Source: Microcystis aeruginosa W13-11
GTDB lineage: Bacteria > Cyanobacteriota > Cyanobacteriia > Cyanobacteriales > Microcystaceae
DNA: 64,000 nucleotides
Assembly (NCBI GenBank): GCA_009995705.1
Contig: JAADBR010000004.1
Span: 1 to 64,000 of the forward strand
Reading direction: 5' to 3'
Made by a program: the position numbers and the translations under genes. Positions 53,408-59,765 of the stretch are shown here, in pieces (the stretch's first letter is position 1; each line of letters starts with the position of its first letter). The notes under the pieces were generated by a model that saw nothing but the letters and a program-made list of their open reading frames with translations, made no database searches and had not been told where the DNA came from.

Positions 53408-56194
53408 ATGGCCGCTAATGCCGACTATTCTGCCCATTCTAGACTTAACTTGCAACAACCTTGGCATACTTATCCAGTGGAAACCACCCTATCTATCCTC
53501 GGTAGTTCCGCTGTTAATGGCCTCAATAGGGAGCAAATCGCCGAAAGAATTAAATATTATGGCAAAAATGAACTAAAAGAACGTCCAGGGCGCAGTAATT
53601 GGCAAATTCTCCTAGATCAGTTTACCAATATCATGCTCCTGCTCTTAATTGCCGTGGCCATAATTTCCGGGGGACTGGATTTACTGGCATTACAGCGCGG
53701 TCATCTGGCTAAAATTGGTGTTCCCTTCAAAGATACGATCGCTATTTTAACAATTGTCATCCTCAATGGTATCCTCGGCTATCTGCAAGAAAGTCGCGCC
53801 GAAAAAGCTCTGGCCGCTTTAAAAAAACTTTCCTCTCCCCAAGTTAATGTTATCCGCGAGGGTCAACGCAGAGAAATAGATGCGGTTAATCTCGTCCCCG
53901 GGGACATCATGCTGATTGAAGCGGGAACCCAAATCAGCGCCGACGGCCAAATTATCGAAGCTTTTAACCTGCAAATTCGCGAATCGGCCTTGACAGGAGA
54001 GGCAAATAGTGTTAGTAAATCCGCCTCCATTGACCCCTTAGACCGGGATACTCCCCTTGGCGATCGCTTAAATTTTGTCTTTACTGGAACAGAGGTACTG
54101 CAAGGCCGGGCCAAGGTCATCGTTACCAATACGGGAATGACCACGGAATTAGGCAAAATCGCTCAAATGTTAGCAACAGTCGGCAATGAACCCACTCCTC
54201 TCCAAAAAAGAATGACTCACTTGGGTAATGTCCTTGTTGCTGGTTCTCTCATTCTAGTTGCCCTGACTATTACCGTCGGTTTGATCAATGCCGGTTGGTC
54301 GGCCCTACAGGAATTAGTCGAAGTTTCCCTTAGTATGGCAGTAGCCGTCGTTCCCGAAGGATTACCCGCAGTTATCACCCTAACTCTCGCCCTAGGTACT
54401 CAACGCATGGTCAAACGTCAGGCCTTGATTCGTAAACTGCCGGCAGTAGAAACCCTCGGTTCCGTTAATGTGATCTGTTCCGACAAAACCGGGACGCTAA
54501 CGGAAAATAAAATGATTGTACGGGAGATAGAGACAGTTAATCGCAATTTTTTAGTTACTGGGGAAGGATATAGCCCAAAAGGACAATTTTTAGACTCCGA
54601 GCAACGGGCGATCGATCCCAAAACCGATCTAGAATTACATCATCTCTTAATTGCCAGTGTCCTCTGCAACGATGCCAGTTTATACCTTGATAACGGTCAC
54701 GATCGCATTTTAGGCGATCCCACAGAAGGAGCTTTATTAGTTTTAGGGGCGAAAGCGGGCTTAAATTTATCCCTAACCAAGCAAGAGTTCCCTAGAATCG
54801 CTGAAATCCCTTTTTCTTCCCAAAGAAAGCGAATGTCGGTCATTTGTCAAGGAGTCAATACCGTACTATTTACCAAAGGTTCCCCAGAATTAATCCTTGA
54901 ACAGTGTCTCTCCTATCAATCGGGATTAGAAAGTCTTCCTTTTGGGGATAGGGAAAAAGAACAAGTCTTAGTCGCTAACAATGCTATGGCTAACAGGGGT
55001 TTGCGAGTCTTAGGATTAGCCTACAAAAACCTGATTTATCCGTCAGAATCAACTGAAATCAGCGAAGATAAGCTAATTTGGCTGGGAATGGTCGGTATGA
55101 TTGACGCAGCGCGACCAGAGGTACAAATCGCCGTGGCTAGGTGTCAAGAAGCGGGAATCCGTCCGATTATGATCACCGGCGATCATCAATTAACCGCTCT
55201 AGCGGTGGCTAAAAGTCTTGGTATTGCCCAAGCGGGAGCTTTAGTCATCTCAGGACAAGAATTAGATAAATTATCACCAATTCAGCTAGAAACCATCATT
55301 GACAAAACTAACATCTATGCCCGCGTCTCCCCCGAACATAAACTAACTATTGTCCGCGCTTTGCAAAAAAAGGGTAAATTTGTCGCTATGACCGGAGATG
55401 GGGTTAATGATGCTCCGGCCCTGAAACAAGCAGATATCGGTATTGCCATGGGAATCGCTGGCACCGATGTCACCAAAGAGGCTAGTGATATGATTCTCCT
55501 CGATGATAATTTTGCCACTATCGTCGCTGCTACGGAAGAAGGGCGAGTGGTTTATCACAATATTCGCAGTTTTATTAAATATATTCTCGGCAGTAATATC
55601 GGGGAAGTGATTACTATCGCTGCTTCGCCTCTTTTGGGTTTAGTTACTCCTCTCACTCCCCTACAAATTCTCTGGATGAATTTAGTTACCGATGGTTTAC
55701 CTGCTTTAGCTTTAGCAGTGGAACCCGCTTCTCCTAATATTATGCGTCGCCCTCCTTTTAGTCCCCAAGAAAGTATTTTTGCTCGCGGTTTGGGCAGTTA
55801 TATCGTTAGAATTGGGATTATTTTTTCGATTATTAATATCATTCAAATGTTGATCGCTGTGCGCTTGGATCCGCTTTTTGGTAATACTGGTTCATGGAAA
55901 ACTATGGTTTTTACTACTCTCTGTTTAGCTCAGATGGGTCATGCCATTTCTGTGCGATCGAGCGATCATCTTACCATAGAAATGAATCCTTTCACTAATC
56001 CCTATCTCTGGATAGCAGTAACCCTGACGACAATTTTTCAACTGATGTTAATCTATGTTCCTGCTCTGCGGGATTTTTTCGGTACTCAATTTTTAACTAA
56101 AGAAGAATTATTAATCTGTTTGGGATTTAGTACCTTGTTATTCGTTTGGGTGGAGTTAGAAAAATTATTTACCCGTTGGTATCATCGGCGATAA
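53408..56194 (+). CDS. P-type cation ATPase (calcium-type, P2)
   Basis: The 928-residue pump has an N-terminal cation-ATPase domain, M4 motif [12 protein letters not shown] (about 315), phosphorylation site DKTGTLTEN with D359, [23 protein letters not shown] and the hinge TGDGVNDAP (about 662-670). The last six helices contain [17 protein letters not shown]. The layout fits PacL/SERCA/PMR-like Ca2+ (or Na+/Mn2+) exporters; the ion is inferred. Monocistronic after the kinase gene. Confidence 0.9.
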
Positions 56195-56443
56195 TCAGGG
56201 AGCTTTTTTCAGTGTTCAGTAAACAGTGAATTGAAAACTCAAATCTGATAACTGAGAAACCCCATCCACAGGGAAAACCCTTGTTTAGCTTTTTCAGCTA
56301 CGAGCCTTGCATAGCAGTACTTTTAATGCTTAGTGCCTTGGCCGTGAAATTCCAGTTCTCTAGCTGATTGCAGTTTGGCTTACTATTAAAAACTGATTTG
56401 ATCTAAGATTGAATCAGCAATATTTTATTGTGAGTATCAAACA

Positions 56444-56848
56444 ATGGAACCAATTTCTCTGATTGTCACCGCCTTGACTGCCGGTGCGGTTGCTGCGGCT
56501 AAAGATACGGCGGAAAAAGGCGTTAAAGATACATATCAAGGTTTGAAAACCTTGATTAAGTGTAAGTTTGCTAATGATGCTTTGGCACAGGCAATGGTAG
56601 AGGCAAAACCAGAGGATATCAAGAAAGCTGAAGGTTTGTTAAAAGATAAAATTGTCGAAGCGGGGGTTGATAAAGATAATGAAATCACTAAATTAGCCCA
56701 AGATTTACTAGACAAGCTCCAAGAACAACCCGGTGGACAACAAATTATCACCCAAAATATTAGTAATGTCAAATATGCTGCTACCTCTGGCACGGGTAAT
56801 GCTAGTATTAGTGGCACCACCGAGCATAGCACATCTAAGGATGATTGA
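56444..56848 (+). CDS. Putative amyloid-signalling effector (Bell-like domain plus C-terminal motif)
   Basis: The 134-residue protein starts MEPISLIVTALTAGAVAAAK, a hydrophobic helix, then amphipathic helices (TYQGLKTLIKCKF, DIKKAEGLLKDKIVEAG, EITKLAQDLLDKLQ). This is like the bacterial Bell-type (HeLo-analogue) helical domains thought to damage membranes. The C-terminus has QNISNVKYAATSGTGNASIS with YAATSGTGNA at 111-120. The next small gene repeats that decapeptide at its N-terminus (residues 19-28). Effector C-terminus and receptor N-terminus sharing a short motif is the hallmark of amyloid signalling pairs. Interpretation inferred; the motif sharing is directly visible. Confidence 0.55.
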   Translation: MEPISLIVTALTAGAVAAAKDTAEKGVKDTYQGLKTLIKCKFANDALAQAMVEAKPEDIKKAEGLLKDKIVEAGVDKDNEITKLAQDLLDKLQEQPGGQQIITQNISNVKYAATSGTGNASISGTTEHSTSKDD

Positions 56849-56869
56849 GACTGTATTTTAATAATCAGG

Positions 56870-57010
56870 ATGGTTGATATGTCAGAACCAAGCAAAATTC
56901 AACAAAATATTACAGAAGCTCAATACGCTGCTACCTCTGGGACTGGCAATGCAACCATCACGATTACCAATTACTATTATCGAGAAGAAGCAAGAATAAC
57001 GGGACCGTAA
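56870..57010 (+). CDS. Stub of a receptor carrying the matching amyloid-type motif
   Basis: A 46-codon gene starts at ATG 56870 (or 56879) with MVDMSEPSKIQQNITEAQ, then YAATSGTGNATITITNYYYR and a stop at 57008-57010. The shared decapeptide is at residues 19-28. Motifs of this kind normally stand at the N-terminus of a NACHT or NB-ARC receptor. Here nothing of the receptor follows; an IS256-type remnant begins 62 bp downstream. It is probably the surviving N-terminus of a larger lost protein, though a stand-alone nucleating peptide is possible. Confidence 0.5.
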   Translation: MVDMSEPSKIQQNITEAQYAATSGTGNATITITNYYYREEARITGP

Positions 57011-57071
57011 GATAGTTTGTGTCAGAGGTCAAAATAAGAACTAATGAACTAAAAAACAGAGAAAAAGAGAA

Positions 57072-57360
57072 ATGATCTTTCGACCCGAACTAATCGATGA
57101 ATTGCTCAAAGACTACAAAAACCCAGAAGACTTGATGGGGGAAGGGGGTATCTTTAAACAACTAACCAAAGCCTTAATCGAGCGATGCTTAACAGCAGAG
57201 CTAGATACCCATCTAGAGGAAGAAAAACAAAACGCAGAGCCAACTAACCCGAAGAATCGCCGCAATGGTCATAGTAAAAAGACGATCAAAGGAGAATTTG
57301 GGAAAGCACAGATCGCCTTCCCCGTGACCGAAACGGAGAATTTGAACCGATAATCGTTCA
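57072..57360 (+). pseudogene. IS256-family transposase, truncated and frameshifted
   Basis: The N-terminus is typical of IS256-type transposases: MIFRPELIDELLKDYKNPED, EGGIFKQLTKALIERCLTAE, NRRNGHSKKTIKGEFGKAQI. A one-base deletion in the run TTCCCC near 57320 moves PRDRNGEFEPIIV into another frame, and family sequence stops at about 57360. The catalytic DDE part is absent. Sequence from 57361 to 57687 has no gene and no clear matching inverted end; it includes a CCACTCCCCACTCCCCC tract. Confidence 0.8.
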
Positions 57361-57687
57361 AAACTGCCAGTTGCCAATCCGATAGCTTGCGGTATTAACA
57401 AATGAGGTAGATGCTCTGAAACTATGCACGACCACTGCTTGAGATATTTGTTTTTCAGCATTGCCCTTCACCATGCTCCTCTAAATCTCTAGCTTGATGT
57501 TCTCACCTTAAGTGTGTGACTGCTCACCTCTTTTTAATAAACTTACACCTGTCAGGTCTCCACTCCCCACTCCCCCATACTTTTTAAACAGCATTTAGGA
57601 TCATCGCCGTCCCTAAATAGTTACTCTGGTTTTTTCTAGTAAAGTTATACTATTAAGGAAGCAAAGACGAAATTCTAGGGTTAAGCA

Positions 57688-58362
57688 ATGGTTAGACAAC
57701 TCGACGACAGCCCGAAAACCACAATCGTCTATCCCGATAGCGACGGTAAACCGATGGCCGACAATACAAGACAATTTCGCTGGATTACGACGATTAAAGC
57801 GAATTTAGACTGGTTATTTGCCAATAATGCCGATGTTTTCGTTGCTGGTGATTTACTCTGGTATCCCGTGGAGGGAGATAATAAGACTCGGCAAGCGCCT
57901 GATGTCATGGTAGCTTTTGGCAGACCGAAAGGGGAAAGAGGTTCCTATCAACAGTGGAAAGAGAACAATATCCCCCCGCAAGTGGTTTTTGAAATTCTCT
58001 CTCCGGGTAATACCCAAACGGAAATGACCAGAAAACTGCTGTTTTATGACCGTTATGGTGTGAAAGAATACTACATTTATAATCCCGATAAAAATGATTT
58101 GGGTGGCTGTATTCGTCGGGAAAATCGGCTCGAAAGTCTGGAAAATCTCGATAATTGGGTCAGTCCTCGCTTGGGCATTCGTTTTCAATTGGCCCAACCA
58201 GAGTTACTCTTGTATTATCCCGATGGTCAACCTTTCACCAGTTACAACCAAGAACGACAACGGGCCGAAGCGGAACGACAACGAGCCGAAGCGGAACAAC
58301 AACGGGCCGAACGATTGGCGGCAAAACTGCGGGAATTAAATATTAGTCCCGAAGAAATTTAA
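57688..58362 (+). CDS. Uma2-family (DUF820) putative endonuclease
   Basis: The 224-residue protein has the restriction-endonuclease-like core of Uma2: DVFVAGDLLWYP, QAPDVMVAFG, VVFEILSPGNTQTEM-KLLFYDRYGVKEYYIYNP. The C-terminal tail repeats RQRAEAE/QQRAE three times, encoded by near-identical 24-bp units, followed by a helical end. Uma2 genes are abundant in cyanobacteria and their targets are unknown. It is upstream of gltA with a 263-bp gap that holds no feature I can name. Confidence 0.85.
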   Translation: MVRQLDDSPKTTIVYPDSDGKPMADNTRQFRWITTIKANLDWLFANNADVFVAGDLLWYPVEGDNKTRQAPDVMVAFGRPKGERGSYQQWKENNIPPQVVFEILSPGNTQTEMTRKLLFYDRYGVKEYYIYNPDKNDLGGCIRRENRLESLENLDNWVSPRLGIRFQLAQPELLLYYPDGQPFTSYNQERQRAEAERQRAEAEQQRAERLAAKLRELNISPEEI

Positions 58363-58625
58363 AAAAAATTATCGCTACAATGAAAGTAGATAAATATCAA
58401 GTCCTCTAGCTAGAGTCGCAACAGCAAGCCCAGAAAAAATGCGCTAGGGCAGGGTGTTGACTAAATCGACGAAGCAATCGCTAAATAGGATTAATTTTCG
58501 TCCAATTCTCCCCAATCCTGAACAGGAGAGGCAGAACCGAAGAATTTCTATAAAATTTCGGTAAGGGTGGAAAAATCAAGTAAGTTAGCGTTAGGGTTTA
58601 ATCTTCGCCACGGAAAGGTAGAACT

Positions 58626-59765
58626 ATGACAGTTTGTGAATATCGGCCAGGTTTAGAAGGAATTCCCGCCGCCCAATCCAGTATCAGCTTTGTGGATGGG
58701 CAAAAGGGAATCTTGGAGTATCGGGGCATTCGGATTGAGGAACTCGCCGAAAAAAGTACCTTCCTCGAAACCGCCTATCTCCTTATCTGGGGTGCTCTGC
58801 CCACGGGGGCGGAACTGGAAGAATTTGCCGATGAAATCCGTTATCATCGACGCATCAAGTACCGTATCGAAGACATGATGAAATGCTTCCCCGAAAAAGG
58901 CCATCCCATGGATGCGCTACAAACTTCGGCGGCGGCTTTGGGTTTATACTATGCCCGGCGGGCTTTGGATAATCCCGACTATATCCGTCAGGCAGTGGTG
59001 CGGTTATTAGCGAAAATCCCGACTATGGTGGCGGCGTTTCAATTGATTCGCAAAGGTAATCACCCCATTCAGCCCAATGATAGTCTTGATTATGCGGCCA
59101 ATTTCCTCTATATGTTGACGGAAAAACGACCGACGGATTTAGCGGCGAAAGTTTTCGATATCTGTTTGACTCTCCACGCCGAACATACCATGAATGCCTC
59201 GACTTTTTCGGCTATGGTGACGGCCTCCACTTTAACCGACCCCTACGGTGTCATCGCTTCAGCAGTGGGAACTCTCGCCGGCCCCCTCCACGGTGGGGCA
59301 AACGAGGAAGTATTGTTAATGTTAGAGGAAATCGGTTCGGTGGCTAATGTTCGTCCCTATGTGGAAAAATGTATCGCTAACAAACAAAAAGTTATGGGTT
59401 TTGGACACCGGGTATATAAAGTTAAGGATCCCCGGGCGACGATTTTACAAAACCTAGCCGAACAATTATTCGCGGAATTAGGTTCCGATGAGTACTACGA
59501 TATCGCCCTAGAATTAGAACAAGCAGTGGTGGATATCTACGGCGAAAAAGGTATCTATGCTAATGTGGATTTCTATTCGGGATTGGTCTATCGGAAATTA
59601 GGCATCCCCAGTGATTTATTTACCCCGATTTTTGCCATCTCCCGGGTGGCCGGTTGGTTGGCCCACTGGAAAGAACAATTAAATGCTAACCGCATTTTCC
59701 GTCCTACCCAAATCTACACCGGAGAACACGAAGTCCCCTATACACCGATCGAACAACGTTCTTAG
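58626..59765 (+). CDS. gltA: Citrate synthase
   Basis: The 379-residue enzyme joins oxaloacetate and acetyl-CoA. Signature parts: SFVDGQKGILEYRGIRIEEL, the active-site region AGPLHGGANEEVL, GFGHRVYKVKDPRA and the C-terminal DFYSGLVYRKLGIP with its Asp. The short length (about 380) fits the dimeric type found in cyanobacteria. Monocistronic, with a terminator after it. Confidence 0.95.
   Translation: MTVCEYRPGLEGIPAAQSSISFVDGQKGILEYRGIRIEELAEKSTFLETAYLLIWGALPTGAELEEFADEIRYHRRIKYRIEDMMKCFPEKGHPMDALQTSAAALGLYYARRALDNPDYIRQAVVRLLAKIPTMVAAFQLIRKGNHPIQPNDSLDYAANFLYMLTEKRPTDLAAKVFDICLTLHAEHTMNASTFSAMVTASTLTDPYGVIASAVGTLAGPLHGGANEEVLLMLEEIGSVANVRPYVEKCIANKQKVMGFGHRVYKVKDPRATILQNLAEQLFAELGSDEYYDIALELEQAVVDIYGEKGIYANVDFYSGLVYRKLGIPSDLFTPIFAISRVAGWLAHWKEQLNANRIFRPTQIYTGEHEVPYTPIEQRS

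Follow-up and report, generated by a model that had tools for sequence, protein, structure and literature searches.

A stretch of 64,000 nucleotides from the cyanobacterium Microcystis aeruginosa W13-11 (contig JAADBR010000004.1, positions 1 to 64,000 of the forward strand; hereafter the window) probably carries the remains of a two-gene amyloid-signaling cassette of the Bell/BASS/NLR kind, with a small effector gene that is still full length and a receptor gene that has been cut off soon after its motif. The kind of system is already known, and the window holds a decayed instance of it. What can be read from the DNA and its translations is that the motifs pair, that relatives have the receptor intact, that it is cut here, and that a remnant of an insertion sequence (IS) lies beyond the cut. 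The two open reading frames (ORFs) are co-oriented and adjacent, lying 21 bases apart:

56444-56848, forward strand: Bell-like effector ORF of 134 residues, with a predicted helical domain at approximately residues 1-107 and a predicted unstructured C-terminal tail
56753-56812, forward strand: effector-side motif QNISNVKYAATSGTGNASIS, with the decapeptide at 56774-56803
56870-57010, forward strand: receptor stub ORF of 46 residues (43 from the ATG at 56879), in which homology ends at 56998
56900-56968, forward strand: receptor-side motif QQNITEAQYAATSGTGNATITIT, with the decapeptide at 56924-56953

The decapeptide YAATSGTGNA is common to both ORFs, at residues 111-120 of the effector, which has 14 further residues C-terminal of it, and at residues 19-28 of the stub; QNIS in the effector and QNIT in the stub end three residues ahead of it. 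The longest word common to the two proteins is 10 residues, whereas it did not exceed 6 when both were shuffled 3000 times; the expectation for exact shared 10-mers is 6e-9. Five of the 10 decapeptide codons differ between the ORFs, all silently (TAT/TAC, GGC/GGG, ACG/ACT, GGT/GGC, and GCT/GCA), which shows that the match is no fresh DNA duplication and that its identity is kept at the protein level. The protein-database form of the stub, of 43 residues, begins at the internal ATG at 56879.

In 59 relatives, a search with the effector gave 40 matches falling in 33 regions. The effector was found in 19 of these genomes, including 11 of the 12 of the nearest genus. Orthologs at 94-96% identity occur in records named Microcystis. 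The gene next to it encodes 1233 residues in G009, 1256 in G010, and 620 in G011, begins in all three with MVDMSEPSEI(Q/K)QNITEAQYAATSGTGNATITITNYYYREEARI, and is separated from the effector gene by 22 bases at loci L031 to L033. Homologs of the second gene run on into receptors of 490-1256 residues (G001, G003, G009, G010, and G011), and a database search with receptor residues 1-60 returned 44 long proteins of 683-1283 residues from Microcystis, Nostoc, Oscillatoria, Crocosphaera, and other hosts, 42 of them with the motif (the exceptions are P0163 and P0164). When 386 cyanobacterial genomes were scanned with the 39-residue tail, matches appeared in five: G001, G003, G010, and G011, of the nearest genus, each had two, falling in the effector and in the adjoining receptor, and G102 had a single match, in an effector-sized frame of 155 residues.

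Pfam recognized the nSTAND1 ATPase (PF20703) in the receptors of L031, L032, and L033, at 406-410 bits against a cutoff of 27.1 (E about 1e-122), and WD40 repeats in two of these three, the long forms of L032 and L033; the 620-residue form of L031 had no WD40 match. PF20703 was not found by Pfam in the window stub, where the receptor is cut before the ATPase. The 620-residue receptor had no match by sequence among solved structures. PADLOC matched neither this receptor nor the effector, and it matched the WD40 part of the 1233-residue receptor to its HEAT-ARM_XIII and PtuB models. An earlier note, made from the letters of the window alone, had placed the decapeptide exactly, had seen QNI(S/T) ahead of it, and had read the two genes as an effector/receptor pair; G009, G010, and G011, in which such a pair is intact and has this motif, bear it out, and the full-length loci that it proposed to look for do exist. 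The receptor class that it expected, NACHT/NB-ARC, is not the one that Pfam finds in the relatives' receptors, which are of the nSTAND1 type instead.

In the window, DNA homology of the receptor to relatives stops at 56998 in five of the eight compared loci (L031, L032, L033, L034, and L037) and before 56998 in L035, L036, and L040, which are rearranged themselves. To the right of this point lie the following:

56999-57353, forward strand: truncated IS256/Mutator-type element, with its left end near 57001
57072-57353, forward strand: ORF of 93 residues encoding an N-terminal transposase fragment (Transposase_mut, E = 8.9e-9)
57557-59765, forward strand: unrelated right flank, with a Uma2 gene at 57688-58362 and a gene at 58626-59765 that we take to be citrate synthase-like

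Near the left end of the IS256-type element, GGGACCGTAAG lies at 57001. By blastn, window positions 56995-57342 align with a copy in the genome of a relative (L135), at 72% identity across 365 columns; the DNA of the fragment had no match in five Microcystis genomes, and its protein had a match in 2 of the 59 relatives. The approximately 200 bases between the remnant and the Uma2 gene (57359-57556) match many places in Microcystis genomes and are perhaps a small mobile element. DNA matching 57557-58630 sits elsewhere in the relatives' genomes, and neither the rest of the receptor nor the gene that follows the cassette in five relatives was found within the window. The 43-residue stub is represented in the protein collection by two member sequences on two contigs. 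A one-off assembly error is therefore less likely, provided that these do not stem from a single assembly deposited twice. The earlier note's receptor cut to 46 residues is thus upheld, with the cut at 56998, before the ATPase, and 43 residues counted from the ATG; its "lost" holds for this locus only, and the missing part may sit at another place in the genome.

Pairing of tail and head extends well beyond this locus. ORFs were scanned at L031 to L063 and L076 to L134, some places having been fetched twice (e.g., L031 and L076), and the 87 effector ORFs comprised 60 with a downstream ORF of at least 300 residues and 27 without, leaving 35 nonredundant pairs. In these pairs, effector tails had a mean local-alignment score of 55.3 with the head of their own receptor and 26.3 with other receptors, and the own-partner score was reached by none of 20,000 permutations. 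The own receptor was the single or joint best match in 13 of the 35, likely because many pairs have a common motif family, and no convincing motif match was seen in L060, L110, L119, or L120. Among the matches listed, and leaving aside the window-type Microcystis set, nine receptor ATPase bodies share 73-76% identity with that of L032 and bear a VG(D/E/N)xN motif (L092, L096, L098, L104, and L114), a GRDLTFAPVQ motif (L080 and L081), or YAATS (L083 and L087); the tail of the neighboring effector is of the same motif type as the receptor in all nine listed cases. By eye, the VG(D/E/N)xN type resembles the Frankia peptide VDLRDAKGVQVGDGNVQINRF, labeled BASS3, whose aggregation is reported in PMC8086366, so that near relatives of the window receptor are used with a motif family having amyloid evidence. 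The YAATSGxGNA family itself may or may not be among BASS1-10.

Effector and receptor forms of the motif differ ahead of the Tyr. An SNVxY/SHxY pattern is present in 65 of 120 listed effector homologs, and the residue directly before the Tyr (or Ile) is Lys in all 65; in the 44 receptors it is Gln in 22, Glu in 17, Lys in 2, and Asp in 1, with no match in 2. This charge difference is a possible basis for contact between effector and receptor. Neighboring effector and receptor genes with matching motifs of their own also occur outside the cyanobacteria, in records named Acidobacteriaceae (L127, 3006-3410) and Kiloniellales (L134, 2323-2703). At five Microcystis loci (L043, L045, L047, L051, and L063), the effector has a tail of the GIAGDISGG type, and the place of the receptor behind it is taken by a repetitive, coiled-coil-looking protein of 131 residues.

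Two-gene amyloid signalosomes of the Bell/BASS/NLR kind are described in PMC7889193 and PMC8086366, and the likeness extends to a gene for a small helical effector next to one for a STAND/NLR-type receptor, to cyanobacterial hosts, to one short motif shared by the effector C terminus and the receptor N terminus, and to sister cassettes whose motif is BASS3-like; the difference is that the window receptor is cut off. In HET-S/NWD2 of Podospora, as set out in PMC9815663 and PMC4344463, a receptor-borne N-terminal motif likewise templates an adjacent cell-death effector. The window system differs in being bacterial and in its motif, and a relation between the effector folds was not seen in fold searches. 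A further difference is the ATPase of NWD2, which is of the NACHT type and not nSTAND1.

Going by the Bell/BASS/NLR family, the ancestral receptor would have consisted of the N-terminal motif, the nSTAND1 ATPase, and usually a WD40 sensor. On sensing a trigger it would oligomerize, bringing the N-terminal motifs together into a cross-beta seed, on which the C-terminal tail of the small helical effector would be templated into a like fold; the effector domain, thus freed, would damage the membrane of its own cell in an abortive-infection response, presumably as a defense against phages. An insertion of the IS256 type, together with rearrangement, would then have cut the receptor 43 codons in and replaced the right flank. 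The locus now has an effector of full length and a stub that can be translated and keeps the receptor motif, but it lacks a sensor. Most likely, the effector is idle and has begun to drift. For the toxin-like effector without its trigger proposed earlier, the absence of the sensor at this locus holds up, and killing is what the family would lead one to expect.

An AlphaFold2 model of the effector, built from 68 sequences, is helical, with a mean predicted local distance difference test (pLDDT) score of 77.6 and with residues 109-134 below 50, and the effector is predicted to be a helical bundle with an unstructured tail. Bell, according to a review (PMC7889193), is a predicted helical bundle with a hydrophobic helix and is hypothesized to act as a death domain that targets membranes. 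For the window effector, no match from fold searches was convincing and no HeLo, MLKL, or similar bundle was listed, which does not exclude that fold. Searches of solved structures by sequence with the effector profile found nothing meaningful (the best was a PD-L1 binder at E = 0.0069, with plant NRC2 at E = 2.2), and NCBIfam gave weak matches at most, the best at E = 0.016. Against the HetE-N model (PF20701, gathering cutoff of 25 bits), the window effector scores 24.9 bits and its orthologs in G010 and G002 score 26.3 and 25.7; we do not claim the match as proof of fungal kinship. Residue 40 of the effector is Cys, where 65 of the 67 other aligned sequences have Lys or Arg, and this may be early drift of the window copy. 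The first 266-313 bases of the effector gene are matched at 73-76% identity by four cyanobacterial plasmid records. At L061 (7823-8377, reverse strand), an effector-like domain is followed not by the motif but by a different C-terminal region, which by eye we presume to be Clp N-domain-like.

The wiring described above would also suit an ordinary folded or coiled homotypic adaptor, effector associated or death-like, through which the shared stretches would pair with no amyloid involved. Such modules with the same wiring, coupling effectors to STAND-type sensors, are described for bacterial conflict systems in PMC8195603. We consider this reading unlikely, however, as the stretch is approximately 20 residues long, predicted to be unstructured (pLDDT about 40), and rich in Gly, Ser, Thr, and Asn, and as a BASS3-like motif occupies the same place on closely related receptor bodies. 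Effector-associated domains (EADs) are, moreover, domains of their own families, and Pfam, which contains EAD models, listed no effector-associated or death-like domain in either window ORF at E values up to 1.

The stub itself could be functional: as a receptor motif standing on its own, it might seed the tail of the effector or block it by capping. Its start, frame, and full motif are kept, the effector beside it remains full length, and two database proteins, P0166 (53 residues) and P0167 (56 residues), are also short and depart from the intact receptor within approximately 20 residues after the decapeptide. However, a query of 46 residues could find only short proteins that keep the motif, so that finding three of them does not point to selection; the Cys at residue 40, within a basic part of the effector, suggests drift; and a seed that is always present next to a working effector would be expected to kill the cell. 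The stub may have a live role, but this is unsupported, and we regard it as improbable. That the match is a meaningless duplicated gene tail, which the earlier note had named as its own refutation, is scarcely credible: across 50 bases, the DNA of the window effector motif shares 80-82% identity with that of the receptor motif in three relatives, but the silent codon changes leave the residues unaltered, the effector form (SNVK before the Tyr) and the receptor form (mostly Gln or Glu) stay distinct, and the pairing is locus specific for many unrelated motifs.

Among phage sequences, the family phrog_30934 overlaps effector residues 98-125 (E = 0.0038), the whole effector had no match in phage records, and a scan of viral contigs found no relative. 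A signal of the effector family was seen in 0 of 20 genomes and also in 0 of 14 control genomes, which does not show absence. A phage mimic of the motif is unsupported; when 50,697 phage records were searched with the tail by tblastn, the single match, at E = 6, was in a large Salicola phage protein. For the receptor, phrog_923 matches the 620-residue form (E = 6e-72), and three unannotated fecal phage records (MT835531.1, MT836527.1, and MT836049.1) contain nSTAND1 relatives with 31-34% identity to it.

The cassette occupies a recurrent slot in Microcystis genomes, with the following left neighbor:

53408-56194, forward strand: cation-transporting P-type ATPase, presumably Ca-ATPase-like

All 12 Microcystis genomes searched carry this upstream gene, at 95-97% identity. 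Behind it, seven have a window-type effector (G001, G002, G003, G009, G010, G011, and G012), two a GGVQNVVGSNRGT cassette (G004 and G006), and one an AEKQVIQQG cassette (G005); in the remaining two (G007 and G008) no cassette was recognized by tblastn. Five of the seven window-type slots keep the YAATS motif (not G002 or G012), and effector and receptor are both whole in three (G009, G010, and G011). G001 has a split effector followed by a 613-residue receptor like that of G011, and G003 has an effector with an altered N terminus and a receptor split into 490 and 339 residues. In G002, effector residues 1-107 are in frame with a later receptor part, without motif and ATPase, and in G012 the effector is cut after approximately 67 residues, with a second, fused copy on another contig (L036). 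Several of these assemblies are drafts, so single breaks could be errors. The same gene, which we take to be a pseudouridine synthase, follows the slot in G003, G005, G008, G009, and G010; the contig ends before its position in G002, G004, G006, G011, and G012, and it was not found in the G007 stretch or among the G001 ORFs listed for the next 7 kb.

Further variants were observed around the slot. Fusions of effector residues 1-107 to the receptor lie at L035 (113-643, reverse strand) and L036 (6928-7929, forward strand; with WD40), in G002 and G012, and decayed effector copies, with a split frame, an altered N terminus, or a cut, lie at L037 (5502-5905), L034 (8457-8825), and L040 (221-547). 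The Microcystis copy cut after approximately 67 residues has a foreign tail ending in VNLDL, an ending also found in P0109 and P0116. Window positions 56312-56571, comprising upstream DNA and the first approximately 42 effector codons, are 83% identical in G005, whose cassette otherwise differs, and parts of this segment are 77-82% identical at other effector loci. The pattern suggests recombination behind the N-terminal helices of the effector. It is conceivable, if doubtful, that the slot corresponds in bacteria to the het loci of fungi, where whole cassettes with mutually deaf amyloid specificities would swap as alleles among Microcystis species and broken ones would leave motif peptides that seed or jam an effector.

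In open-access full text, YAATSG and YAATSA occurred in one unrelated paper, and among the entries listed we found nothing on amyloid signaling in Microcystis in the open-access literature, which is without most subscription journals. Receptor bodies that are approximately 75% identical and carry different motifs, each echoed by the neighboring effector, form a clean natural experiment on whether signaling specificity in bacteria is set by short amyloid motifs alone. The window adds a natural split of effector and sensor, in that the locus keeps the presumed killer and the motif of the receptor but has lost its sensor. Three cassette types and several decayed copies make the Microcystis slot a source of matched strains in which to look for the threats that these systems counter.
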